A DNA stretch of 64,000 bases from positions 18,726,001 to 18,790,000 of the forward strand of contig NC_079876.1 of the NCBI RefSeq assembly GCF_029227915.1, read 5' to 3'. Source of the DNA: Hydractinia symbiolongicarpus (taxonomy: Eukaryota; Cnidaria; Hydrozoa; Anthoathecata; Hydractiniidae). A program made the position numbers and the translations under genes. The notes beneath the pieces are model-generated. The model was not told the origin of the DNA. It worked only from the letters and a program-made list of their open reading frames with translations, and searched no databases. Shown here in pieces: positions 12,750 to 63,966 of the stretch (position 1 is its first letter; each line of letters opens with the position of its first letter).

Positions 12750-13945
12750 CTATTCGCATTGAAAAGTAACATGGAATATATAGCCGATACGGAGAAATGG
12801 ATTGCATATTTCCGGATAATCGAGTGTAATAATTTTAATTTCTTCGTCAAAGTGGTGCTCCACAAAATCATCCACGCGCTTATTTGCAATGCCACATAAT
12901 ACAAAATTTGAATAATCGCCAACATAGTTTTCTTTTCTGAGAAAATTATAATCTTGCAATTTTTCTATAATTTTTTGCTTCCACTTCTTTGTATCCAAGT
13001 CAAAATTGTTACAATTTTGAAGGGGTGCATCATAATAGTGTTTAAACCAATTCATAAAATGTTGGGAATGAATCGTTTCTTTTGTAGAACAAGCACTGGC
13101 TAATTCAAAAAACTTTCCTTTCTCCATATACTCTCCTATGTTGTTCCAATCAATGTTATCTGCTTTCAATGATTGAATATGATGTATTGCCTCATTGTTT
13201 TCCAAACTTCCAGAATGGAATTAACATCCTTCTTCATTTTCATCATTTCGTAAATAATCAACGAACGCGCCACACATAATTCAGATTGATCATATCCATA
13301 CATCTTTACTTTCTTACCTTCACCAGTAAATTCTCCCATCACGCACTCGAGTAAGTCAACATAACCAATGAAAACATACGTCTTTCCAAAAGCAAAGTTT
13401 GTTTTTGCTGCAGGTGTATTTCGAAACATTTGATAAGTTTTTTTTGGATAATTTGGTATTCCTCTTCTGGGGGAGGAAATTTTTAACTCCTTACTGCAAC
13501 CTTCTTTACATGTGATTTTATTTCCTACGTGAGATGCCATGTTCTGATAAAAGATATCTTTTAGAAAGCAGTAATGTTCTTTTTCCTTAGGAAATGTCTT
13601 ATTATATTCTTTATGAAAATCAGGAATAGATAAATCAGGGTCATCTTCATAACTTTTTACAAAAGCTATTATCTCGTTTCGTAGAGTCCTATTCTCCACA
13701 AATTGTACAATAGCATCATGCTTTTCCAAACTAGCAACTCCTACATTTGACTTATCACAACTTTTCTGTACGCTTGTTGTGCCAGACGATCGTGTAGAGC
13801 AGATAGTCTCGTGTCGCAAATACCAATCTCTTTTTTGACAAAATTTTCTGCAATACAATCGTTCTTTGCAGTTTCCACAACGAAACTTCGCTTCCGCATC
13901 GTAGCAACCATAACACAGTTCGAAATGTTGCATGTCCTGTTCCAT
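12750..13945 (-). pseudogene. MYND zinc-finger paralog 1, internally deleted
   Basis: The start is the ATG at 13945. Residues 11-49 are a MYND finger (CYGC, CGNC, YCRKFC, HETIC), a zinc-binding protein-interaction module. A body of unknown function follows, shared with the paralog at 28.6-30.4 kb: both have GKTYVFIGYVDLL, CVARSLIIYEM and NSILEVW. After NSILEVW the frame ends within 12 codons. The homologous C terminus resumes in another frame at LENNEA (13205), continues with HFMNW and stops at 12750. Against paralog 2, about 502 bp are missing, joined at a shared TTGG (13202-13205). The missing part is plain coding sequence in paralog 2 and no GT-AG register fits, so this is a deletion, not an intron. 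A truncated 259-residue protein could still be made. Confidence 0.8.
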
Positions 13946-15059
13946 TTGTTCATGTACAACACAAGTTTACCTATTTATGTCACCAATGTTGCTTTTGGCA
14001 ATCACCACAACAGTAATCTGACAAGCGACAGCAATTCTTACTAGTGTTGAATATATTTAAAATTAAAAACGTATTTTTCCTACAAACTATGAATTGTTTT
14101 GCTGTGGTTAACAGTCATACCATTTTCTGCACAGTTTCAAATTTTGTATAGATCATCATCAATTTTAATAAACCTTTTCCATATTCATTTTTTACAAATA
14201 TTTTCATTTCCGTACTTCTTATTTGCACGCATGAGGATTAAGTTTTTACATAAGGATAACGTTTTTTGCATAGATGTGAACCTGGCTGTATAATTGGTCA
14301 ACACATATTACATTAACGCTAAGATTGATAAATTATTAACTCAAAGCAACACATACAACGGGGTCTGACTCAGGATTTCTCAAGTATAAGCTCGAATAAA
14401 AATTAATTTCTGAATGCAAAACACCCTAATTCCGCCAATACGGCACATTTTAAAACAACTGAAGTTTTTGAAATGGTTACTTAGGATCCTCCACTAGGAC
14501 TTTGGATGAGTACTGGAAGCCAATGATTTTAGAGACTCATCGTAGACATTAAACAGCTTAAAATTAATAGATAGTATGACTGTTTTTAGAGGCAAAATAC
14601 ACAAAATTAAAGGATTATAGAAAAAAACCTTGCGGCTTGAGTGTTTTAAAGAATAAACATAAAAATACGTAACCCACGGTTGTTAGTAACCTGGAAAAAT
14701 TAAAAATTAAAATAGACCTTAACCAATTATAACAGAGAAAAATTATTGAAAATCTGGAATTTCCAATAATAAACCCGCGAATATCTTCCTAACCGTTTGT
14801 CAAAAGATTATGATCCTATAATTCTCTTTATCAACGTTTTAATTTCTATGCCATAGAGGCAACAAATTTTTTTCCGTACTTTACTATTTTTGCTGGTGTC
14901 CACAAAATTATTACCCTTATATCTTCTTAACCGTCCATCAAAAACGCATTACTTCTACATTTTATTCATCAGCTTTTCACGCAATTAACGCAATAGGTAA
15001 ACAAATTTCTGAATAATTTTTTATGCACATTTTTTTCAAATTTTCAAACCGTTATATCT
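13946..15059. other. Intergenic interval with a dispersed repeat
   Basis: The first 100 bases would contain the promoter of the MYND paralog; no motif is clear. From about 14750 to 15059 lie imperfect units of a dispersed non-coding family, each with a TATATCTTCTTAACCGT-like block followed by CATCAAAA and TTCATCAGC. Related copies occur at 34.86-35.15, 41.34-41.83 and 45.28-45.64 kb. Confidence 0.5.
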
Positions 15060-15065
15060 CATTAG

Positions 15066-15150
15066 GCGTTCCTGTTGCCCTTGTGGTAGAGCGTTCGCTT
15101 CAAGTGAGGAAAGTCTTGGGTTCAAACCCTGGCCCAGTCATGTCAGAGTA
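15066..15150 (+). repeat. tRNA-derived SINE-like head
   Basis: TTGTGGTAGAGCGTTCGCTT followed by GGGTTCAAACCC resembles the D-arm and T-arm (A-box and B-box region) of a tRNA gene at roughly the right spacing. The stems are too poor for a working tRNA. A SINE head or decayed tRNA copy inserted in the dispersed repeat is most likely. Confidence 0.4.
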
Positions 15151-17724
15151 TAAAAAGGTGCATTTATTCTTTCAACTTAGCGTTTACCATAAGAATAGGA
15201 TTGATATTTTAGGCGATTGTATAGTTGGGCAATTGCTGTGCTTGTACGACCTTTGTAGCACAAATAGGAACTTTAAATGCAGTAGGACCACCTTCGCAGG
15301 ACCTTCGTTGTTAGCAGTACCAATAAGAACTGAAGAGGCCATCTTGGGACAATAATTTTAAAAATAAAAGGGTTTGTGATATACATTTTCTTGATCAGCG
15401 CTTTAGGCTCCATTTTTGTAATGCGGTTGGTTTTACATCCGACATATATAAACTTTTTCTCACGTCATATTATGTGCAACGATTTACTATAAATTAGCGG
15501 ATTTTGTTACAAAACCATTTAAATTTAAGAGAATTGCTGAATAATGTCAATAAAGAATGACTAAAAACACAGTGAGTCAAACAATAGATATGGTTATGAT
15601 AGATGTTATTGTCATTGTTGACATTTTTATTTGTTATTTTTTTTAAGACAATGTAAGAAACATGACCTTTGGCAACGTAGCTGGATGAGAAAAGACATGT
15701 ATACATATATAGCCAACTAGCCAGCTATCTTGCTTACATGTACACAGGTATCTGAAAAGATACAAACTAAAAAAAAATATGTAGCTGGGGACGTTTAACA
15801 CCGGAGAGGCGGGGGTATAATTCTTTTTGTTACGCACTGTTATGAATATTCAAGAAGGTGGAGTGGCTAGTTTTTGTGTAAGTTGTAATTTTAGCAAAAT
15901 ATTTGATGATTTAATGGAATTTGTAATGCCGAAAGGGCTTTGGGGTTGAGTTGTTGACAGTTGGGCGGGTAGGCGTAGAAACGCTCTGGGACGTGGTTGA
16001 TATACATGTATGCCTTGGCCTGCCTTTATGACTCTCTTGTACGCTGCACCTTGTTTGTATGCTTCTTACCAGTTTCCGTCCTTAATTGTTTTGCTTTGAC
16101 AAGCTCTCCGCAACACTTTCTACATTGATTCCACTGTCAACATAATTTTTGTGTGCTAGTTAAGGGGATATTGTAAAACATAACTGCCTAAAATTAGGTA
16201 AGCACAACGCTGTAAAACCTTCAAGTTCATTTTTATTATTTAAAAATTTAAAAAAGCATAGTTGTATCATTTTTCAAATGCTGCGTGTTCAACGAATTTT
16301 TCAATGTGGGTCAGTTTAATTAAAATTGAAAAAGTTCCTGAACGGATGATTAACCTAACCTAATTATTATTTATACTCTCAAACTAAAATAACAGATGCA
16401 GTAGACGTCCGTTAATTCGAATGCCGCCTAATTCGAACTTTCCGTTATTTCGAACAAATTGCCAAGCCCCTTGAGTTTAGTGTAGGGCAAAATCCACTCC
16501 AAAACAACATGCCAGATGTTATGGGGAAGTTGTTTAGTTATGTCAAAAACCTGGAGGATTAAAAATGCAAATAGATACAAAATACCATATGTTGTTTGAA
16601 GTTCACTCTTTATTTTAAGATCAGAAGTTGTTTTCAATACGTTGGCAAATGTTTATACGAGAATCGTGATTGCGCGAAACAAATGATTGGGGGTTAAACT
16701 TACCACGCATATCTTTGACTGTTGCATAAAATAATTTAAATTTCCAAAAAGCCCAGCCCACCATTACTTTGAAAGCACCAATTTGATGCTAGCCATCATT
16801 ATCCCCAAACACAAAAAAAAACTTCCATAACTTTTTACCTTATTTTAATTGATAATAAAGTCAATGCCATCGGTTGACCAACTTCATCAAAAATGTCTTA
16901 AGCACAGCATGGAAACTGTAGTTATCTAATACTTTTTTGTCATTGGAAAAAGTGTAATCCCGGCGGGCACACAACGTCACTTTAACGTTAAACAAACGTT
17001 GTATTTTCGTTATAACGTTTAAAAACGAAACCGCTATTTTAATGTTGTCGTCGTTGTCTGTAATTTAAATAAAAGCGAAAAACCCTGGGGACGTGGATGC
17101 GGTACTGTTTTAGAACGGCTAAACCAATCAATAAATAATCCTAATAAAAACGTTGTTTTACGTAAATTTTTCGATGTCTAAGGAATTCACAGCCAGAAAA
17201 AGATTTCTACGTAAAACACAATAAATCTATTTTTGTTTCGGTTTACACCGACCTCTAACTTCTCCGACCACCCACAACAGAAGGTTTGACAGAAAAGTGA
17301 TCTAAAAATACTAATTTACCGAACTGTTACAAACAACTGTCGCCAAAGATTTTAACTTTTATTTATTTATTGGACCGCATTCGACCCAGCGCGTACTCTT
17401 GCCAAATAGTTGAAAAGGTAAAACGTTCGCGCGTATTAAATACGATTTGTTTTAAATCGTGCGTGAAATCTTAGTAAAATGGACACAGAAAGGCTAAAGG
17501 TGATGGTGGACTTAAAACAGAAATAGTATGGAGGAGAATTCATTGTTAATCGAAATTAAATATGACCTATTTATACTACGTGTGTAATATGACCAAGCGA
17601 ACGGAAGAGATATAAAATTAGAGGTCTGCGAATGTAAATATTTTTAACTGTACTATGATAACTTTATTAAAAATTTCCGTTTTGTTTCATTAAGAGTTTT
17701 TGTCTGTGACGCGTCCACATACTA
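15151..17724. other. Intergenic interval with transposon ends
   Basis: No supported exon. At 15380-15430 there is a further piece of the dispersed repeat (TTTTCTTGATCAGCGCTTTA). Near 16400, GTAGACGTCCGTTAATTCGAA followed by repeated AATTCGAAC blocks resembles the terminus of a pogo/Tigger-type element; the other end was not found. The rest is AT-rich. Confidence 0.45.
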
Positions 17725-28630: not shown

Positions 28631-30384
28631 CTATTTCTTTTTAATGTCAAAAGACAGTGTAAATACGTTAGGTCTTTGAAGACAGTTACATATGTCTGGT
28701 CCACAAATGTCCGTTATGTTTACATCGAACTCATCGACGTCGAAGTAATACTCCAAAAATTTGTGGCGATACTTAAGCGCAAGGATGCGATTGCTTATAT
28801 CCAAGGGATATATAACAAAAGCATCTCTCCTGAAATATGGAATGTAGCCATCACTATGACGTTTCATGAAAAAGCCGTGTAAAACTTTCTTTTGCTCCAT
28901 GTGGACTTCCAACCGTTTTTCATCGTATTGAAGTATATGTGTTCCAAAGACAATTGTAGACCAATTCATAAAATGCATAGAATGGGTTGTTTCTTTATTC
29001 GAGCAAGCGTAAGCAAGTTTAAAGAAGGATTCCTTTCTAATGTAATCAGCCACGTTGTTCCAGTTAATGTGATGAGGTTCCAATGATTGAATATGTTCTT
29101 TGGCTTCCTTGTTTTCCAACTGGACTGTCATAACACGAAGCGTACATTTCACTTTATCTGCTGTTATCAACTTCATCAATGCTTGTAGTTTTGACTTGTA
29201 GTACGTTGTCACACTTCTAAGAAGGCTCCCATCGTACTTAAAGTCTTCACTGCAATTAAAGGATTCTAATAATGTACCTTCTTGTCGTCGGTAACGCCTA
29301 AAATGGGAAACCATCGAAAACATGGAGACATTGCCGTGACATTGTAACTTTAATTGACCGAATATCTGTCCGGTCAACTCGTATCGACACATTTCGATAC
29401 GATCTTGTTTTTCTAACAAAGAGCTAATAGCTTTGAGTGGATCGAATAATACAAATTGTGCTTGCCATCTGTTAATTGCTTCATTCAGGGTAAGTGTGGC
29501 GTCTCTCCAATGATTTATTAAATCATTTATATCTTGCGCGAGTTTGGTAGTGGTGATCACACTATCGCATGCCTTTCTAAATTCCTTTAATGTTTGATTG
29601 CACCAGCCTGTGGAAAACCAAACTTCAAGGATTGAATTAGGATTTAATTGCATTTTTATCATTTCGTAAATAATCAACGAACGAGCCACACATATCTCTG
29701 ACATGTCAAATCCATAGAAATTTACTTTGTCACCTGAACCACCTGTAAATACTCCCATTACAAGTTGAAGTAAGTCCACATATCCAATAAAGACATAGGT
29801 TTTACCAAAATCAAAATATTTTTCCTTTACAGGAGTATTGCGAAACAACTGATAAACTTCCTTAGGATAAGTGGCCTCAGGTCGGTTCTTATATATGTCT
29901 CCCAGGCGTGGGTTTGCATCCAAAAAGTGAGCTAATTCAGTTGTAATCATCTGAAAACTTTGCTTCAGTGAATGTGCATCCCATTCCATTATATCCAATG
30001 ATAGTTCTGTTTCACCAAATTTTTCATGCTGTTCATAAGCCCAATTTAAAAAAAAAGTGTTTACATCATCATTAGGATACGCTTGGCAGTACTCGAGAAG
30101 GAAATTAGGAATCGGAACATCTTTTAAATAATTTTTTTTGAATGGCAGGGTCATAAAAAAGTTAAGAGCTTTTCTTAAATTTTTTGCCGATAATTCTTCC
30201 CCTCTACCGCATTGAATTTGCGCACTCTTCTTGATGTTGAGAAGTACATGTTTGTTTATGTTGCTTCCAATGGTTTTTCTGACAATTTCTACTGCAGTAT
30301 ATTCGTTTCTTGCAACAGCCACACCGAAAGCTTGCCTCTTTCAGCAAACAGCCATAACAAACTGTGAACTTCTTTTCATCTGAC
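28631..30384 (-). pseudogene. MYND zinc-finger paralog 2, frameshifted after the finger
   Basis: The body (about 30210-28631, some 520 residues, no intron) is the full-length version of the family seen at 12.7-13.9 kb. It has GKTYVFIGYVDLL, CVARSLIIYEM, ILEVWFSTGW, a helical middle and HFMNW near the end. A complete MYND finger (CYGC, CGCC, YCSRNC, HWKQHKQTC) is encoded at about 30363-30250 but one frame away. It hits TAG at 30206-30204 where the body's frame takes over, so one small indel separates finger and body. The long open frame covering this region therefore begins with out-of-frame residues. CTATAG at 30385 looks like a splice acceptor, so a 5' exon is expected upstream. The function of the body is unknown to me. 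Either a recent pseudogene or a sequencing error in a live gene. Confidence 0.75.
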
Positions 30385-34246: not shown

Positions 34247-36238
34247 TTAAGTATAATAACCTTAGAGCTATTTCAGTATAGCATGTTTAACAAGCATAGT
34301 ACAACCTGTGTTGTGTTGCCTCCATTGCAGAACAAACTTTCGAATTTACTGTTATGCATTATATTGTGCATCTTACTTTACCGCCAAAAAAAGAAAACCG
34401 AATGAAAATGTTTCTATTTTTGCATAAGAGCATTAAAAAGTAGAAAATCATAAAGAGGTCATATCTATGTGTCATTTGGAAAACCAAATTGATAGCTATT
34501 TGTGCAAACTCGAAACATGTTCTGAAAACGATGCACCTTGATTCGGTATTTAAAGAGAAAGCCAGTTCTTCTATTTCTATTTGTTTTGTACTTATTTTTT
34601 TCACGCTTGTTGGTGTTACGTGTGCCTTGGACATAATGTTTTCTTTAAGGGATGTCCTAAGAACACACATCACGTTAAATTTTCGTATTACATTTGTGCC
34701 CAGGACAGGCCTTCTTCCAACGTAGCTATTTTAAAAGATGCCCTGAAGATACAACAAAACTAATGCAATGTTAAGACCCCTTCAGCACGTTAAACATGTG
34801 CCTAAAAAAGATGTCCTTATGATGAATCTACTTAGGCAAAAAAGCAATATGAAATACCCGTCATTTGAATTTTGGTGACGTCAGGAAAAACCCACTAATG
34901 TAAAAAACTTGCTAGAAGTTTTTTAACCCACTGCATTTATTTTTGCAGTTTGAAATTTTGTTGGTAAAAATGTATTGTTTTTTGTCTTTTTGATAAGCTG
35001 TTACGAGGTATTGAGGTTTAAAGGTATCATGATGACGTCATTAACTTAACTATTCCAATACGATTGTTTGACCAAAGTTTAGGAAATTAGACCCAATTTG
35101 GTCTCAGATCCCCAGGTACCTAGACGCCAAATAAATGTCGCTTACTTCCATTTGTTTTTAAGCCATTTAACCTCACACTAAAAAGTACAATTTTGAAGCA
35201 ACAATGACTTTAAAAAAATTTTACAACTCCATTTGAAATTAAGTGTTGATTTGGTTACAAAAAAGGAACCATTGTTATTTTTATTGGTATTATTACTTTT
35301 TGGCATAATTATAGATCATAGCATCTTCGGTGGTGGAGAGCTGATAATAATGTAGGCTTGTGTCTTTAAAGTATAGACTATACGTATGCACTATATTATT
35401 ATTTTGTCCATAGAATCACAAAATACTGCTGTGAACACTAATGCTAAAATTTTCATTTGAAAATTCTTTCCTAGACTTTTTTTTATTCTTTTATATGATT
35501 TTTCTTATAAGATTTAGAGGTTTTATTACACAATACGTAACGAAGAAACCAGATTATTATTTCTATAGGAACTTTTAAAAACAGCTGGCTATCTAGAAAC
35601 TCAATGTTATTTGACTCATTTGTACACCAACCTAGGTCATATTCCTTTTTAACTTTTGACTTTTTGCTAATTAAACAAAAATAAAGTGTGTTAGGTTCTT
35701 CTTTTGAACTTAATGGCTTTGTGCTATAATAATTCCACAACTATATCTAGCAAGTCCCTTTAGCTAGCTAAAAACCTTAAAATTAATATATATAAGAGTT
35801 GTATGTACTATGCTAGCATGTTCTAATTAATGCGCTAACTATTGCTCGATCAAAACATCAATTCTTTTTTTATTAATCGTAAACATAAATTTCAAGGAGT
35901 TACACATAACCAGAAGAAACTGCTAATTAAAATTGCTGTCTGCAACATGCAACGGGATATTTTTAAGCAGAAGCTGAGCATTTTTGGCTAGCCTCTGTGA
36001 ATCTTTTTTTATTTGTATTCTTTCTTGCGTTATGGGTATTGCCCACAATAAGACGAATTAGCACTAGCTATTGTACTAATGTTTTCCTCTGTATTTATAG
36101 ATTTTGTTTTGCAAGCATAACGTAGGCATACACTAAGCCTGATTGTGTTTATTCTACAGGTATACTTCTTCTGATTTCGAATTTGTACTTGCTTATAAAA
36201 AACATGTATTTTTAAACGTTGAAAAAAATGTTGCTTAC
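34247..36238. other. Intergenic interval with dispersed repeat
   Basis: About 34860-35150 is a copy of the dispersed family also at 41.3-41.8 kb, sharing the order TGACGTCA, AAGTTTTTTAACC, GATGACGTCATTAA and CCCAATTTGGTC. A minus-strand frame at 35483-35740 (85 codons, non-ATG start) shows no domain, and its phase does not match the MYND exon upstream, so it was not joined. Confidence 0.45.
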
Positions 36239-41215: not shown

Positions 41216-41339
41216 TTGCACAATAAAAAAACACTGTTACGACTTTGATGGAAACATTTGTTCTACTAGTCGATAAAGACCCGTGAAAAAATCCATTTAG
41301 GCAATAGGACATTGAAAAAGTTGGTTGTTTAAGAGGTTT

Positions 41340-41830
41340 TGCTGACGTCAGCATTGCAAATCCAAAAAAAAAATTGGTGAAATTTAGTTTATTAGTTGCC
41401 TGTAACGTGTAGAGGTTGAAACGCTGATCGAAATAATGTATAGGATCATATCTTTTCTACGAACGACTAATGACATATAAGAGTTTAAAAATTTTGCTGA
41501 CGTCAGCAATGGCCCGTTAAAACGCGAAAATTTTTTTCAGAAATTTATATCCCTGTTACTTTCATCGTATAGACCTGATAACGATGAACAAGGAAATGTA
41601 TAGGATCATGTACTTTTGACAAACGGTTGCAGAGATGTTGGGGTTTAGAAGTTTTTTGATGACGTCATCAACCCGTCCATTCTGAAACGGATTGGAGAAC
41701 CAGGTTTTGAAAAATTACCCAAATTGGTCCTAGGTGTTCCCTAGTTACCTACGTGGTAAAAAATCATTGACGTCACCACTTCGTTTCCAAGTTATTTGGC
41801 CTCAAAGTTTTAGGTGCACTGTAATGACTA
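41340..41830. repeat. Dispersed repeat, left arm beside RAG1-like relic
   Basis: Contains the ordered blocks GCTGACGTCAGCAATGGCCC, TATAGGATCATG, GATGACGTCATCAACCCGTC and CCAAATTGGTCC. The same blocks occur in inverse order and orientation at 45280-45640, on the far side of the decayed transposase gene. Solo copies elsewhere in the window show it is a dispersed family. Confidence 0.65.
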
Positions 41831-42397: not shown

Positions 42398-44802
42398 TCA
42401 CATTCGTTGTAAGGCAAGCTTCCTTTTTCTGGGCTTTACAACAGGCTTTAAAGTCTTTGCCGAAGGACTTACTCTTGCAGAATTCTCTTTTAACACGCTG
42501 AATAGTCTCCGCCGGTTTGGTTTTGTTCGACAGAACTGTCTGTGCAAGTCATTAAACTCAGGATGACTACCCTCACCAACTTGCTCGTTATGCAATTCTA
42601 GCCCCTCTCTTCATTTTGTGATAAACTGCAATACAGCGTACATTTAGCCAAGTCGAACGGAAAAAGCTCATGAGCTCTTTGATTGCACTATCTAAAATGT
42701 TGAAGAAAAGTATATACCTTACTATAAAAGAGAATTTAAAGTGTATGATTTTAAGGCCAACTCACCCAGTTGACTTAGTTTTTCATCATCAAACTTATTT
42801 GAAGAATTCATCAAATTATGACACAAAGAGTATTTCATGATTAACTTCTTAAAATCACCACACGCCTTAATTGCTTCTTCATGAACTTCTGTACCAACAA
42901 TTCCAAGCTGGCATACAGTTATTAGCAACGAATTGCACAGTTTGATTAGGTTTTTATGCTAAAATTGAAAAAATATATATGATGAATACATAAAGTCCTT
43001 AATACACATGCAAAAAAGAAAACTTGTAAAATTTGTTAATCTCTTACTTGCAACATTTTGTGAACATGATTTAAAATTTTACCATGACAAGCCTATCGCT
43101 CGACATTTAATGAACACAATGTTTCATCCAATTTCTTTACACATGGGCCATCATTCTTATCCAGTGGATTCTCCTGAGTAAGATAATCTATTTGTTTTAA
43201 GTTGTAAAAATAAAGAAAATGGATATGCTAGTTCATATGTATATATAACTGAAAATTAAAAATAAATATATATAAATTTTAACTAACTCTTTCATTCACT
43301 TTATCAGAAAGGTAAACAAGTCTTGGGTCATAAATACGTCTTATTTCTGTTTGATTTTCAGGATTATTCAAGATTGCAGTGTTGGTTGCATCGTGAACTA
43401 ATTCGATTTTGCTTCGGATGTCTGCACAACATATTCTAGCCTGCTTATTTCTTGGTGACTTTGGATATACTATCAAAAAATTTTTGTCAAAGCAATGTAT
43501 TATTTTTTGCAAGGGCAGCTGCTATTTTTGCATCCGTTGTGTGACAGAAGTCCTCAAGCTTATTAAAAAACTTCAAGTATGTTCCCAGCGATATGTGAAG
43601 TGCAAGTAGTGCAACCTATTGTATAAAACAATGTATATATACCTGATCAATTGGCACAATTAACATCCTATCATCGATAACATTGTTACACTGTTCAGCA
43701 GGCTTAATATCACTACTTCCAAGACTTTTAAACTGTTCCAAATCATTCTTCAGTGATTCTAACGTTCGTAGAGATGACATTCCTCTTTCAGCCAAGGACA
43801 GTTGCATATTTTGTTTGGTAGTTGTGCAGAAAAGACAACAATGGCAAACTGTAGATGTGTATATAATTAATAGTTATGTGTTTCAATTATGTTTAAGGAT
43901 AACAAGATATATATAGTACAAAGTTGAATTTACCATTTGCTCCAGTTATTCCATAGACATGACAAAGAAATTCATAATCACCAAACACAAATACACGGAT
44001 TAAATTCAATAGTTTTGTCTTCAGAACGTGCCATCTTTTGCTCAATTTTGAAAATATCTCTGATCTACTACTTGAAAAACTTGTTTGTAGGCCATTACAT
44101 ACTTTTTTCATGTGGGTTTATTTCAGTTACAGTTAGAGCTTCTCCACAATCTTTTCTGCACTTTAGTTTTAAGCACTGTATCATTGATGTCATATTTTTT
44201 GAAACTTTGAGCGACTCAATTTTCTTAACAAAAAAACAAGTGGGACATAAACTCTCAATTTCTTGCTTTACCAGTATTTTTGGTGCCAAGCAATTATAAC
44301 AAAAAGTGTGTTTTTTACATGTTGTTGTTATAGGTTTTCGCAAAATATTGTGACACAGCTGACAACCACAGAGGCTAAGATGTGGCTTAAGACTGGTGTT
44401 TAAGTGTTCCAGTGTTAATTCTGAGGGAACGACATCTTTGGTGTTTTCGAATATGTTTAACAAAATTCGTGTCCATATTGGTTTTTTTGTTGTTGGCCTG
44501 CCTGATTTGTGTTTCTTTGTTTTACGTCATCTCTTAGGTTTTTCGAAGCAGTAAGGACAATTTTCGGAGTGTGGCTGCCAACGAACTTCATGCATTACAG
44601 AAGTTGTTGTTCTTTCTCACTATGTGTCGGTTTTGAGACGCATTTTTGTTGGATATATCTCGTTTGAGTCTTGGTCAACATCAATAAAAAAGCATTTTAA
44701 TAATCTGCTTTTATGTTTAGATACTCAAACTGTGTCCTTTGATAGCAATTGTCCACAAAATCTGCAAAGTTTGTTTATTTTCTCAGAGTGATATTCAGCC
44801 AT
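42398..44802 (-). pseudogene. Decayed N-RAG-TP-like transposase: RAG1-N-terminal-like RING plus transposase
   Basis: Six exons on the minus strand: 43934-44802, 43643-43848, 43288-43615, 43048-43173, 42723-42958 and 42398-42687. Exon 1 opens at ATG 44802. In one frame it has LCRFCG, IDVDQDSNEIYPTKM, RWQPHSENCPYC, then a C3HC4 RING (CQLC, CKKHTFCYNC, CPTC) and a CRKDCGEAL zinc-finger segment. This is the motif order of the non-core N terminus of vertebrate RAG1. It continues into FGDYEFLC, CHCCLFC, LHISLGTYLK, and ends LHNEQVGEGSHPEFNDLHRQF with a basic tail, a conserved transposase-like protein of animal genomes. Lesions: stops at 44727, 44622, 44619, 44529 and 43095; frameshifts in the A-run at 44103-44108, in exon 3 and in exon 6. 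Introns keep phase, so the gene once worked. Confidence 0.75.
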
Positions 44803-45279: not shown

Positions 45280-45640
45280 TATTGACGTCGCGCAATAACG
45301 CCAGAAAATTTGGGTAAGTTCCCTAATCCTTGGTCACCAAATCCGTTTCGGAATGGACGGGTTGATGACGTCATCTAAAAACCTTCAAACCTTAATATCT
45401 CCGCAACCGTACATAATCCTATACATTTTCTTGATCAGCGTTTCAAAATCAACAGGTATACAAATTTATAATAAAAAAACTCGGTTTAAACGGGGCCATT
45501 GCTGTCGTCAGCCAAATTTTTAAACCCTTATATCTCATTAAATGCTCAGCAAAAGCACAGGATCATATGCATTTTCTTGATCAGCGCTTTAAGCTCTCCA
45601 CAATAGAGGCAATGTGAAAACAAAATTCTAAATTTATTTT
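45280..45640. repeat. Dispersed repeat, right arm beside RAG1-like relic
   Basis: Inverse counterpart of 41340-41830, with GGACGGGTTGATGACGTCATC, ATAATCCTATACATTTTCTTG and GGGGCCATTGCTGTCGTCAGC. Together the arms bracket the decayed transposase. Confidence 0.65.
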
Positions 45641-45679
45641 GGTGGATAGTTTCCTGAGGTCATCAAAATTTTTATCCTG

Positions 45680-45813
45680 CCTGAGTGGATTTTTCCATGG
45701 GCCTTATCGACTAATATTAGACATAAAATTTTCGGCGAAATCAAAGGAAAATGACAATATCCACTTTGCCTGTTACGCACAGACACAGTCTCTGTATTAT
45801 TATAAGAAATAAC
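45680..45813. repeat. Helitron-like fragments
   Basis: GTGGATTTTTCCATGGGCC followed by TTATCGACTAAT resembles a plus-strand Helitron 3' hairpin and end. Directly after it, 45720-45813 is a reverse-oriented 5' end (minus strand TTTCTTATAATAATACAG) matching the fragment at 775-893. Confidence 0.4.
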
Positions 45814-46285
45814 AAGGCGACATCACAGGTATCGCACAGCAAAAGTTGTAGGGGTACAATATTTTCTATCCCTCGGTATCGGTAAAAGTTTTAAGTTCGC
45901 CTAGGGTATTCTTAACAAACACTGAACCCTATTCACCACATGTACGCGCTTGATGAATGCGCAGTAATTTTATCCAGCCAGTACATCTGCAATTCCTATC
46001 GCAGCAAGTTAAAACTTTATGACTTTTAATATTTTTTTATTCCGGTCAAGGCGGTAACATAAATGATTTTACGGGTCCTTCATAATAGCAGATTTTAATA
46101 GGTTAGCCGCGTTGGCCGAAAATAAGGAAAAATGTGTTTCGCTATCGGTTCTAATATGTTAGAAATTAATTTGAATTGGAAGTGTCGGCTTGTTTCATTA
46201 AATACTTACTTAGTTTGCACCAAGCCTTGTTTCCGAATATTTATAAGAGTGTATGAAAAAACTTTTACTTACCTAGTAAAATAAT

Positions 46286-48212
46286 ACTATAAAAATTCCA
46301 CCGAAAAGACGAAGAGTTGCAAGTGACGCAGCTATTGCAGAAATTTTGAGAATTGTGAATAATGAAGAGGTTGTTAGTAATGATGCAGAAGAGAACGATG
46401 ATCTCACTGAATTGTGCGAGGAAGAAGGTATTTTCTGTAATTTTATTTCTTGACGAATTGCAAAAAATTCAAATATTGATATATTCCAAATATCGATATA
46501 AATCAACTATCGGTCTTATCATGGTTTTAGATATTGATGATTCGAATGAGGAGGTGGAAAGGAACGTGGAACAGGAACAAGGTGATGTCGAAGAAGATCA
46601 GAACAAAATACGTCCAAGATTGGTCCATGATATTGATAGTGTACTGTACATTGAAAATTTTGATAAATTTGAACTACCAGTAGAACACAAGTGTATCGTA
46701 AGTATTGTAAAAGTTAATGAAAACAAAACTAATAACATCACATACAATTACCTACCAAACAGAAACACTGGCCGTCAAAACAGAGCAAACATAATAACAG
46801 GGCTACAAGGTGTGCTACCAAAAGCTACAAATACTACTACACCACGCTAAGCGTTTGAGTTCTTTCTCATGCCTGGAATGATTTACGATGTTGTCAAACA
46901 TACGAATCAAAAGTTTGAGCGAACGATAGAGGAAATTACCCCAGCATTTATTGCACTAAAGCAAATCGGCACTGTTGTAACGTTGTGCATGCAAATCGAA
47001 GTGTTGGTTTACTTCTGTACTGGGGACTCTGGAGACAGAATACTCTTAGCATAGAAAAGCTGTTGCTGCTGGCCAGCTATTTATGCAGCAACTATGCTTC
47101 TGCATCGGTTCAAATTTATACTTTCACACTTAGCATTTGGCGACGATACAACGCATGGTGAAAGATGGCCAGCGGATCGATTCGCTGTGATCCGTGACCT
47201 TTTTGAATTCTTCAATAATGAAAGTACGAGTTGTTTGGCACCAGGAGATTATCTTTCATTAGACAAAACTTTGTACCCGATGCGAACTCAAATCGGCTTC
47301 ACACAATACAACCCTAAGAAACCAGCAAAGTGAGGGTTGTTGTTTAAGTCCATCAACGCTGCACGTTATCCTCATACATTTATCTCTGGTCCATATGCTG
47401 GTAAACCCGTGGAAGGTGATGGACCATGTCATGTACAAGAAACAGAGAATATTGTGAAGTATTTGATTGAGAGTTGGAGCAATGTTGCCCTTTGATAGGT
47501 TATACACTACACTTTCCCTTGTTTTGTGGATATACGAAAGAAATATAACCTCCATCGGAACCTTGATGCTAAGCCGTAAGGGCATACCAAATGATATGAA
47601 AAATGTGTATGAGAACTTATCTACCAAAATATACTGGCCAGATAACTGTCCGTTGTTGCTGTTACCATACATTGTAAAAGCAGCATCAGCAAAGAAAAAT
47701 GTTCTTCTCCTTTCTACCCCAACCACTATATTATGTACCACAAAAACGATAATAATCCCAAGCCAAGTTTGTACAAGCTATACGATTTCACGAAAGGCGG
47801 AACAAAAATTGTGGATCAACGTAAATAGACCAAGGTCGTATTTCCCTACCTTGTTGATATGTGACGAGTAAACTCTGCAACCATTCATGGAACGAATACA
47901 GGAATGAATCCTTGCTTGGTAAATTCAATTGAATATTTTCATGAGTTAGTCGATAGCCTGGTAACACTGCATATGCAACAGCGAGATCTGACAAGACTGA
48001 AAGGGTCTACAAAAAATAAGATGGAGCTTATTACTGGGAAAGTAGTCGTGCCTGAACAACAACGCGAACCTAGTCCCGCAATCAGTAAGCATGGGCACGA
48101 TGTCACATTTGCATGTTGGAAATTGCTGGCAAAGGTCACAGCAAGAAAACAGCGAGAAAAAAGCCAAAAAAATTTATACATGCCGCATGCACTTGTCACA
48201 AAAATGTCGTAA
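46286..48212 (+). pseudogene. Decayed piggyBac-type transposase
   Basis: Exon 1 (about 46286-46432) encodes an RRRVASDAA...EEE acidic N terminus and ends at a GTATTT donor. Exon 2 starts at 46533 after GGTTTTAG in the matching phase. The frame then continues through piggyBac landmarks: SLDKTLYPM with the first catalytic Asp, GFTQYNPKKPAK, PFDRLYTTLSL and SRKGIP with the second, and DFTKGGTKIVDQ with the third. All three Asp are still present. Stops at 46848, 47052 and 47331 lie in an otherwise continuous frame. Frameshifts fall near 47470-47500 and 47690-47760, and more stops near the end. The C-terminal region (to 48212) is poorly conserved. TTAA target duplications and terminal repeats were not identified. 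The element is dead. Confidence 0.75.
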
Positions 48213-59000: not shown

Positions 59001-62000
59001 CCTCTGGCTGTGACTATGTTAAATTATAACCAGAGATACGTATAGCATTTTAGCAACTTTATTGTCTACCACACAAGCCTATTTATGGTTAGTAAACGCC
59101 ACCAAATGCACTGACTGAATACTATGTTTAAAGGACGCAGAAAAAGGGAATTGAAACTGGAATGCAACGACCGAAACCAAAAGTACTACCACTACACTAC
59201 GCTATACCTGAAAAGGAAAAATACCTACCACTAGTGAATATGTGCGAAGAATTGGCGACTGGTCCGAACCGGTCGTCAATAATAGGTACCACTTCTATAA
59301 TGTGCGTAGAGCCCACAAATCCAGAAAATTCGAATTGCTCTTGGCATGCATTTGTGACATTAACTTCCTCTTCCATTTCCATATTTCGTGTGTATTTATG
59401 GACAATCATCAGTTGACCAATGACCGTATCTAGCAGTAGATGCTCTGGTACTTTCCAATACGCAATTGCTTTTTCCGACGAGGTCTGTTTTATAGTTAAA
59501 TTATGGACAGGTTCTAAAAGTACAATATTATTTTACATTCAATCATGCAACTACGTTTAATGACTGATTGATGACTGATTTAAAAACTCTTATTTTTTCC
59601 TAAATAAAAAGAGAGGGATCTATGTTTGTAGATATGTGTTTGATTTCACTAAACAATATATTTTTGGGGACCGTTTTGACATTGTTTTGGAAGCTTTAAA
59701 ATCAAAATTCCAGTGTTGACAGAAATGTTCGTTTATAAAAGACGATGTTTAGAAACAAAATATTTTGATTTACTGTCCCATTTCTTTTTTCTCCCTAAAT
59801 TTGTGAGTATTATTACGTATATCTATACATTTATTGACAATTATCAGCGGCTCACAGGCCAAAGAATAAATAAAGTTACCTAAAGGAACACTCGAAACAT
59901 ATATAATTGATGGTTTCCCTGGCATAAAATAAAGACCACGTCTTTTTGTGTATATGTTAACTTGATATGTAATGTTTTGTTCCAGAGGACCAAGGATGCT
60001 GAACTTCGATCTATATACATATTTTGAAGAATGCCACTTTTCTGCAGCGTTTATGATAATGACAAAGTCTTTTGGATGTTCCATCAAGTAAGCATCTGAC
60101 ATATTATCCAAGTGTCTCCATTTTATACCAACATCAGTGTAGGTCATTGTTGCAACGTTTATATCGTATGGTGCATCTGATAACCATCGATCTACGGGAT
60201 AAAATGTATTCTTTTTACCTTTTTTATTGCTTTTCTTACTATTTTGATTCTTATATTGAAACTGCATGCTGCCCTATTTTTCCTAATCATATGCCTTGCA
60301 GGTAACATTGTACACAATACTTACCATTTATATTGCCTTCATCGTTACACATGTAAGAGCTCATAGAGAATATAAATTTTCCTTTAACTCCAATGTTCGA
60401 TCTATCCTCTAAGTAATAACTAAGAGTGGGTGTCCATTCTGTGTAGCGATTAAACGTCATCCAGTAGCAACGCTGTCCAGAGAAACCAGTCACAGCGTAA
60501 GTTCGATCAAGTCTAATATAATTGAAAATACTGAATGTGTCATTTTCATTAGTAACGATGGCAACTTGAAATGTATGTTTCTGTGTTGGTATGTCATGAT
60601 GGGCAACGTCAATGTAAGTTACAATTATGACTCGTGTACATTCAAATTCCAAGCCAGTTCTTTTAATGTCCTTGTTTATCAGTGACAGAATGCTTCTTTC
60701 TTTAGTTTCTCGATAGAATATTGAACCTCCTTGTAGTGTATCGAAATTCATATGATACGGTGCAATCACTGTTTCATGATATGGAAGACTGATGTTGAAT
60801 GTTATACCATTTTGAACAGATATTAAGCCGTTCGTACTAACCTGTAAACGCCAGATAAACAATTACAACATGCTTCGAACGATTATGAAAAGTTTTAAAT
60901 TCGTTGTCGTTTGCTTTGATTGAGCTTTTATGTTTAAATTAAACGTAAAAATTAAGCACAAAAGAAGAAAGAGTCGCTTGTACTTGTACATCTATGTGGA
61001 ATGTTTCATCAAGTTGGTTTACTTTACTATCTGAAACAACGAATACTTCTTCTGTGCTGTGAAAGAAATTAATGGAAGCAAAGTCATTTTTTATGCAGCC
61101 AAATGTTTGAAACCCACATTCGATGATTATATTGTTGAACGAAAATTAAAAAAAAAACACGTTCATATTTTTGCCATTTACCTGATAGAACTTTAACATG
61201 AAAATTAAAAAGAGATATATTTACCATCAAGTAACACCAACTAGAGTGGTTGGGCGCATTGTATAAAATGGTTTTTTGTATCACGTTGATTTTGATTTCT
61301 TAAACACTCAAGTTGCCTTTAAAACTTTTCATTTGTTTTATTTTAATTATAACATGTTTTGTAAGTTGTTCTATTATTTGATTTCATTGTAATTACGGTG
61401 TAAAAGGCACGATTCTGAGGAAAGGACATGGTTCTAAAATTTTGTTTTATTTCGAATACAAAGTGTTTGGTTTTAAATGCTATTTACTTGCATCTTGAAA
61501 TTTTGCAATTTGAAAACCGTTCTAAGTCTCAAACGTTTTTTATCGATTTCAAGTTTCTCTTTTTTTAATTGAATGGCTTGACAAATGCTCCCAAATGGTA
61601 ACACTTAACAGATTCATTTGGAAAGATGTGAACACAGGGTAAAATAGGTTTCTTATATATAAAAAGGGTTTAGACTGATCACATGATAAAAAAAACTCAA
61701 TGATATTTTTCATGAAGCCATGAGCATTCGAAAATTTTGATTACAAATCATATTAGTTAACTTGCGATAAACTTATACTTTAATTTGACTTACATAAATT
61801 TGAGTTACGTTATAAAAAAACAATGGTAGCGGTTCGCTGAGTGTAAAGTTCTCGGCATAGTTATCTCCCTTCTTAATTTCTACATCACCATTTTTGACAC
61901 CAAAAGGATATAATTCTGAAAAAATAGAGTATAGCTATAAAAAAGAATTCCCACTTTTACACAACATGCTATAATATTTATGTATGTTATTAACGGGTAG

Positions 62001-63966
62001 TTTAACGTTCCAGGTGTGATTCCATCCTAATAGCACTCTTTTCCTTTCGTCAGTCTGTAACCATGTTACCTTAAAGCCAGAGATAGGCATAGTATGTCTC
62101 CAATTTCGTTTTCTGCCACACAAACCGATTTTCGGTCAGTAGATGACTATAAATGAGCCAACAACACTATATTTAAAGTGCTCGGTAGGACGACACTCAA
62201 TCCTAAAACATTGAAGTTTTAAGACGAACGCGCTAGCACTACGTAATTTTCGCTAATCCACATATACCTGTTATGGAGCAATTATCTGAGCTCAGCAGGT
62301 ATACGTGCTTTCCAATCTCACCGACGTTTGTTTTCTTAACCAACGATGTACTATTTTTGAGAGGCTCAAAGTACTTCCAACCGCAAAATCTTTCAGAAAT
62401 ACCAACTACAGCTCCATTTGTTGATAGCGTTTTATAAATAAGTATCACGTAGGTCTTTCCTCCATCAGAAGCTAAGATAACTTGGAATGTATGACGGCGC
62501 TCAGGATGATCGTGTTCTGGAACATTTAGGTATGATATCAGGACACACTGATTGGCAACAAATGATGGGCTGTCAGGTAGTTTCCTTACATCTTTGCTTG
62601 CTTTTTGTAAAAGGGTTACGTCAAAGCTTTCGCGAAAATATATCGTTCCCCCCTGTGTAACATCTAAATCGACATTGTAACTTGCAAGAAGAGTGTATCT
62701 ATTTGGAATTTTGACTTTTCTCATGTTTAAGTATGCGTTGATGCCAATAACTCCGTTGGTGCTGATCTACAAATATAAAAAAATATGGATTAAGGAACAT
62801 TATCTTGGTAAAACTGTCTTGATCATTTTGTTAAAAGTTTCACGATAGTTTCTTGCATTAATTTTCTTTGTTTTTGTGTAAGACCATAAAAAAATGGTCA
62901 GAAGGTTGCTTGCAAATTCGTCATTATAACTTACCCACATTTTCTTTGCATTCCTGGTGAACAATGGCATTGATTTGCTAAGTGCAAACCCATATGCAGT
63001 GTTATCTCTTCGACGCATTTCTCTGTCACCATGAAGAGGACCATATGGATACATTCCTGAAAAAACAAAGAGTTGTTTTCAATAAAGTTAATTGCAAATG
63101 GACAACTGATGTAAACATCACATGTAATGTAATGTATACACAGTTATGCAGGACCAAAGATTAATTCGCATAGTAGCTAGCGATTTCATGACCTCCATGT
63201 ACGCATTGCAGGGAACTATTATACATTTATCTACCATTGAAACTCGGAATTGTTAAACTATCTTCACTCCAGTAAGTTTTAGGTATTAAAGCACCTTGTA
63301 ATGTAAATTATTAAATTGTTACTTTACACGCTTTTCCAAGACCTTCTTATGAATTATAAATCTGCACCTTTCATCGCAAAAGTTATTTCTGACAAACATT
63401 TTTAGAAAACGTTAATTGTGAAAATCTTTTCCTGGCTCATAAAAGTATCTTGGGTTGAAGTAAATACCTTTGTCTCCCTTGCAGTTTTCTACAGTCGCTA
63501 AATAAACAAACTTTCCCTTTATATCGACGTTGGTATCTCCAGCTAATGTCTGTATTCCCTCTGATGGTTTTAAACTCTTTACTTCGCAAAACTTCTCTGC
63601 AAAACCCGTGTAACCGTCATCGCTGTCAAGTTGTATGAAGTTGAAGATAAGATAAGTAGATCGTCCATCGGAAGCCAATATGACTTGAAATGTATGCCTT
63701 AGTATTTTTGTCTTTTTTGCAGGGACGTCGACAAAGGTTACTACAATGGCATGTTTTGCCACGAAAGGAGTTGTTGCAAAAAGTCGAATATCCTCTGTGG
63801 CTGTTTGTAGCACTTCTTTGTCAAATGTTTCTCTGTAAAATATTTTACCAGTCACTGTTAAATCCATCTCCTTAGAAAATACTGCCAATACAGTGTGTTG
63901 AGCGAGAAGCTTATTAACCGGTCCTTCTACAGGTACATCGATCGATACTACCCCATTCACGTTTAT
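50099..63966 (-). CDS. Receptor tyrosine kinase with NIDO and FN3 ectodomain (5' incomplete)
   Basis: Fourteen exons join in one phase (3,732 nt, 1,243 residues plus stop): 63468-63966, 62935-63056, 62268-62766, 61794-61915, 60325-60841, 59880-60191, 59208-59513, 58698-58858, 57469-57718, 56441-56733, 56086-56279, 51867-52101, 50617-50732, 50099-50204. Every border used is GT-AG. Order: second half of NIDO 1, NIDO 2, NIDO 3, two FN3 domains, a transmembrane helix, a juxtamembrane segment, a tyrosine kinase domain and a tail. It should sit in the plasma membrane and signal by ligand-driven tyrosine phosphorylation. The ligand is unknown; nidogen-type modules suggest extracellular-matrix or cell-surface partners. 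The signal peptide, first exons and promoter lie beyond the window. I give no gene symbol because no vertebrate receptor kinase I know has NIDO modules. Confidence 0.88.
52318..53140 (+). repeat. Helitron-associated repeats in the kinase intron 51.9-56.1 kb
   Basis: 52318-52385 repeats the interior of the element at 25.9 kb. From 52430 to about 53100 lie diverged units of the ~150-bp GCCTATA repeat, ending in a stretch like the 3' part of the element at 32.5-33.4 kb (TACTGCA, CTCCACCTGG, GGACTTGTGGCTTA). Confidence 0.55.
53757..53790 (-). repeat. Helitron-like 3' end, minus strand
   Basis: Read on the minus strand: CAGTGGATTCCCCCACGGG, then TATTCAG and CTAG (53763-53760), then T. It has the same hairpin-plus-CTAG form as the ends at 26171 and 49162. 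Confidence 0.5.
59208..63966 (-). other. Ectodomain block of the receptor: NIDO x3 and FN3 x2
   Basis: Each NIDO module is split the same way: a 122-nt exon (phase 1 to 0) with a YPFG/YPYG start, then a 499-517-nt exon (phase 0 to 1) starting with [IV]xxNG (IST, VST or, in module 1, IVN). Shared motifs are FYRET or YFRES, a VTxxDV/ISYLNV strand and HTFQV[IA]. Module 1 lacks its short exon because the window ends. Conserved cysteines occur near the end of each (FCEV, FCGW, RCYW; ENC, DNC, MCN). The two FN3 exons (59880-60191 and 59208-59513) are phase 1-1 and show VHNLTIKQ and IAYWKVP strands. N-glycosylation sequons such as NIS and NFT are present. Confidence 0.82.

Follow-up and report, generated by a model that had tools for sequence, protein, structure and literature searches.

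A decayed transposon copy, probably of the Chapaev kind, with a RAG1-like transposase in Hydractinia symbiolongicarpus

The window considered here is a stretch of 64,000 nucleotides from the genome of Hydractinia symbiolongicarpus (NC_079876.1, positions 18,726,001 to 18,790,000, forward strand). It harbors a broken transposase gene of six exons, which occupies 44802 to 42398 of the minus strand and is flanked by inverted arms. The features of this element, in the order of the gene and in coordinates of the window, are:

45307..45716, minus strand: right inverted arm, located by local alignment and blastn; outer end approximate
44482..44802, minus strand: exon 1, RAG1-type N-terminal zinc domain ("Chapa"/RAG1_imp_bd; Pfam PF12560) with four in-frame stops
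44236..44364, minus strand: exon 1, C3HC4 RING (Pfam RING families; best PDB sequence matches BARD1 and the RAG1 dimerisation domain 1rmd)
44098..44175, minus strand: exon 1, zinc finger past the RING (CRKDCGEAL ... H), as ZFA of RAG1, from the RAG1 alignment that runs beyond the RING (window copy and profile of relatives)
43934..44097, minus strand: rest of exon 1, with the junction of an internal loss, then FGDYEFLC (second catalytic Asp) in a different frame
43643..43848, minus strand: exon 2, CHCCLFC zinc pair (equivalents of RAG1 C727/C730) and the region after it
43288..43615, minus strand: exon 3, with one stop and one frameshift
43048..43173, minus strand: exon 4, with one stop
42766..42958, minus strand: exon 5
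42398..42691, minus strand: exon 6, frameshifted; one zinc His and the catalytic Glu (HNEQVGEGSHPEFN) kept, G at the second zinc His
41264..41725, plus strand: left inverted arm (terminal or subterminal repeat), located by local alignment and blastn; outer end approximate

Local alignment of the arms (41264-41725 against the reverse complement of 45307-45716) gave a score of 261, compared to at most 30 in 50 shuffles, so that their likeness is not due to chance. Blastn identity between them was 72.7% over 396 columns (41337-41725 versus 45668-45307). The number of exons agrees with that in the original prediction for this locus, which was made from the letters of the DNA, and the motifs quoted there were all found, on the minus strand. 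LCRFCG, IDVDQDSNEIYP, RWQPHSENCPYC, the C3HC4 RING and CRKDCGEAL share one reading frame in exon 1 (44802 to 44098), which contains four stop codons and is closed by a fifth; FGDYEFLC follows past a frame change, and CHCCLFC and HNEQVGEGSHPEFN are located in later exons. With the boundaries chosen here, all five gaps between exons have GT at the start and AG at the end, and one gap measures only 27 nt.

Exon 1, translated with X at the stops, matched the Pfam family RAG1_imp_bd with an E-value of 3.1e-5 and 24.1 bits (gathering score 23.3), and RING families were matched as well. Since the RAG1_imp_bd match lies outside the RING, the RAG1 likeness of exon 1 extends beyond this domain, and the exon is set apart from generic RING or TRAF proteins. 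When the segments preceding the RING were scanned singly, all 13 (12 relatives and the window copy) matched RAG1_imp_bd at E <=1, the best at 5.4e-14, while zf-AD also matched five of the 13 (best E 0.0071). In the PDB, a profile of the 12 pre-RING segments from relatives matched 21wb, a structure of the RAG1 N terminus, at E 5.3e-15 and full-length mouse RAG1 at 6.4e-13, the next family being L3MBTL3 (E 1.8e-5). The RAG1-type N terminus outside the RING, as originally proposed, is thus upheld by the window copy and by the profile. With a profile of 26 of the 28 proteins found, the first PDB match was full-length mouse RAG1 (101-382; E 2.4e-34), and the best non-RAG1 RING match had an E-value of 5.4e-15. 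By sequence comparison, the homology between the front end and the RAG1 N terminus is not confined to the RING.

Relatives were obtained by protein searches from Hydra vulgaris (nine clusters), H. symbiolongicarpus, Diadema antillarum, Lytechinus pictus, Oculina patagonica and the EukProt entry scpid, which we take to be the sponge Sycon. Full-length relatives with the zinc region are found in Hydra, the sponge and sea urchin, whereas the coral relative is a shorter protein that carries the front half. The expectation that intact copies keep the zinc region therefore holds for full-length relatives in other genomes, the only ones examined. Among eight relatives subjected to Pfam, P0001 and P0003 passed the RAG1_imp_bd cut-off and P0004 matched below it. 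RING families were found with E <0.001 in P0001, P0002, P0004 and P0005 and with E 0.13 in P0003 and P0009, and DUF1280 matched seven of the eight. P0008 and P0010 are devoid of the front end. P0013 has no RING between the zinc domain and the core, which may reflect a natural loss or an artefact of the gene model. P0028, a RING protein of Mycena, was left out as unrelated. A later search with an added RAG1 row returned seven proteins (the scpid query, four others, a second scpid protein and a fungal RING protein); neither RAG1 nor RAGL was returned, even though the row had been added to draw them in. No mollusc was among the named matches of the protein searches. When 17 relatives and the window copy were placed in one tree, the latter clustered with the Hydractinia protein at 91% bootstrap, inside a group with Hydra proteins (76%). 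This placement points to a hydrozoan host; an early-branching animal is likely, as had been suggested.

The original reading of the second half of the protein as an unrelated, non-Transib transposase found no support, although the sequence lies far from RAG1. In a structural model of a relative, the core is predicted to adopt the RAG1/Transib fold, and the catalytic and zinc residues of the core of the relatives align with those of RAG1 and Transib. The core profile scored above all 41 controls. Core identity to RAG1 averaged 17.5% over 415 columns in 13 relatives, the window copy not included. Among the matches listed, the stretch from the ZFA to about model residue 374, on the side of the RAG1 nonamer-binding domain, was reached by 6cil alone (from 308). 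The modelled fold indicates that both halves of the family proteins, and not the front alone, are related to RAG1.

The window copy spans 648 of the 970 residues of the relative P0001. Residues 299-554 of the latter (256 residues), including the first catalytic Asp, are absent. In the N-terminal domain, R and T stand in place of the second CxxC pair, and the position of the second zinc His is occupied by G. Of the core residues, the copy retains the second Asp and the Glu as well as the Cys pair and the first zinc His. The divergence of the arms and the presence of stops suggest an old copy. With the stops and the missing first Asp, the window copy should make no active enzyme.

The best explanation is that the element is an old, inactive copy of a Chapaev-type DNA transposon of the cut-and-paste class with a transposase built like RAG1; we assign this a probability of roughly 85%. 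Chapaev transposons with a Chapa domain and a RING are described in passages of Kapitonov and Koonin 2015 (PMC4411706), where the Chapa domain corresponds to the N-terminal zinc part of RAG1; lancelet and starlet sea anemone are named there, and Hydra appears in a tree legend that does not state the clade. Of the features of this subgroup, a Chapa domain, a RING behind it and inverted arms were found in the window, and a DDE core distantly related to RAG1/Transib is present in the relatives, while the window copy is without the first Asp. Compared by description, the elements in these passages and the window family share the zinc domain, the RING and a core distantly related to RAG1, in the same order; the window copy differs in the loss of about 256 residues with the first catalytic Asp. 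The architecture is thus already described in earlier elements, according to the same passages. No title or abstract dealing with this copy was found, subscription papers being largely outside reach. An intact transposase would consist of the N-terminal zinc domain, the RING, a zinc finger and a RAG1/Transib-type DDE core with zinc pairs, in this order. By analogy with RAG1 and Transib, it would bind the arms as a dimer, and its D-D-E site would cut and paste the element, while the RING might regulate the transposase as a ubiquitin ligase, again by analogy.

Several observations weigh against this assignment. The name Chapaev is given tentatively by analogy of architecture and not by comparison with reference sequences. 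Target-site duplications of Chapaev measure 4 bp, and no convincing duplication was found at 3, 4, 5 or 6 bp; one palindromic 4-bp candidate is accounted for by the inverted repeat itself. RAG1_imp_bd was not listed by Pfam for the other five of the eight relatives, even though P0002 and P0009 hold the segment. The core matched RAG1 with an hhalign probability of only 19%, which is weak by sequence, and in HMMER comparisons of the relatives' profiles with RAG1 the second (core) stretch was not significant. Transib would still be compatible with a weak match, however, since in a single-sequence search against the RAG1 core Transib itself scored only 18.5, compared to 274 bits for ProtoRAG.

The missing core significance, together with the finding that Pfam matched nothing in the second half of the window copy, would also suit an element like N-RAG-TP, in which a RAG1 N terminus precedes a protein that has no relation to the RAG1 core. 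According to passages of PMC8355894, N-RAG-TP of Aplysia californica (Panchin and Moroz 2008) consists wholly of RAG1 N-terminal-like sequence. By description, both are transposons encoding a RAG1-like N terminus, but N-RAG-TP is without other sequence in that account, whereas a RAG1-type core follows in the window family. The predicted fold of this core, its catalytic and zinc residues and its score above the controls make the explanation very unlikely. A remnant of a genuine RAGL transposon (RAG1L-RAG2L, TransibSU/ProtoRAG type) would share the RAG1-like architecture and fold, and cnidarian RAGL is reported by Martin et al. (PMC7204232). RAGL and Transib resemble the window family in core fold and catalytic residues; however, in passages of the same paper RAGL pairs RAG1L with RAG2L, and Transib is without the RAG1 N-terminal region, which is present here. 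The core of TransibSU is >30% identical to RAG1 (PMC4411706), a mark below which the relatives remain with their average of 17.5%, and ProtoRAG reaches its far higher score against the RAG1 core, so that a RAGL relic is slightly less probable still. That the gene is the remnant of a domesticated host gene instead of a transposon might be concluded from its introns, but the inverted arms on both sides, the nine protein clusters of the family in Hydra vulgaris and the decay of the window copy leave this reading with little credit. A generic RING/TRAF fragment with RAG1 likeness by chance is hardly credible given the RAG1 homology ahead of the RING, even though the RING exon alone matched BARD1 (E 7.2e-8) slightly better than RAG1 (E 7.9e-7) in the PDB.

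RAG1 is the enzyme that cuts the antibody genes of vertebrates during V(D)J recombination. How its N-terminal half arose is disputed: it either came from another transposon by fusion or belongs to an ancestral architecture that Transib subsequently lost. The former was proposed as a fusion of Transib with N-RAG-TP (passages of PMC8355894). In the window family, the N-terminal zinc region, RING, ZFA and DDE core are collinear with vertebrate RAG1, the difference being the low core identity of the relatives. The full-length proteins in RAG1 order from Hydra, sponge and sea urchin, together with the shorter front-half protein of coral, are material for testing the origin.

For this purpose, identities were compared in both halves, with one sequence on the side of RAG1 (11 rows in the earlier exchange comparison, eight in the identity-pair fit, 14 and 13 in the two trees). 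In the N terminus, RAG1 and the family were 24.7% identical, compared to 21.5% for the hydrozoan-type versus the sponge-type group (a difference of 3.2, 95% 1.2 to 5.3); in the core, these values were 17.5% and 34.6%. A fit over all 28 family pairs predicted 7.7 to 14.6% N-terminal identity at the core identity of RAG1, and 25.0% was observed. In the 19 deepest pairs, the slope of N-terminal versus core identity was -0.02 and the prediction 23.0 to 23.8%, and RAG1 exceeded these pairs by only 1.5 points (95% -1.2 to 4.1). The N-terminal identity of deep pairs has thus become independent of core identity and reached a floor, which means saturation of the N-terminal comparison. RAG1 joined between the hydrozoan-type group and the rest in both trees, and support for the rest was low in the core tree, at 43%; because the place is matching, topology does not discriminate. 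As the RAG1 N terminus is no further away than deep family members while its core lies far outside, an exchange would suit the data, i.e. the zinc domain, RING and ZFA might have passed between a Chapaev-type element and the RAG1 lineage after the cores parted instead of being co-inherited; we regard this as possible but doubtful. With the N-terminal comparison saturated, the data do not yet decide between inheritance of the RAG1 front half together with the core and its later capture.

Further repeats are located in the window. A stretch at 803-895 resembles 45727-45815 (about 93 columns, 79.6% identical), the second copy adjoining the right end of the element. It was rejected as an empty insertion site, as it matches the right flank only and the left flank is without match. 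The stretches 14791-15410 and 34968-35122 resemble the arms of the element and are perhaps further relics of the family; as MITE copies (14.8-15.4 kb and 34.97-35.12 kb) they were discarded, being partial arm matches with no repeats inside either stretch. A broken piggyBac-like transposase (46359-48212, plus strand) adjoins the element, of which 47055-47333 matches Pfam DDE_Tnp_1_7 (E 3.1e-13) and the rest was assigned by frame reading. Three successive nidogen-like (NIDO) domains are encoded on the minus strand (60290-60862, 62242-62766 and 63415-63966). Also on the minus strand, 12753-13966 and 28634-30340 encode a MYND-finger protein and a second protein without Pfam match, which have stretches such as KTYVFIGYVDLL in common and might form a small family.
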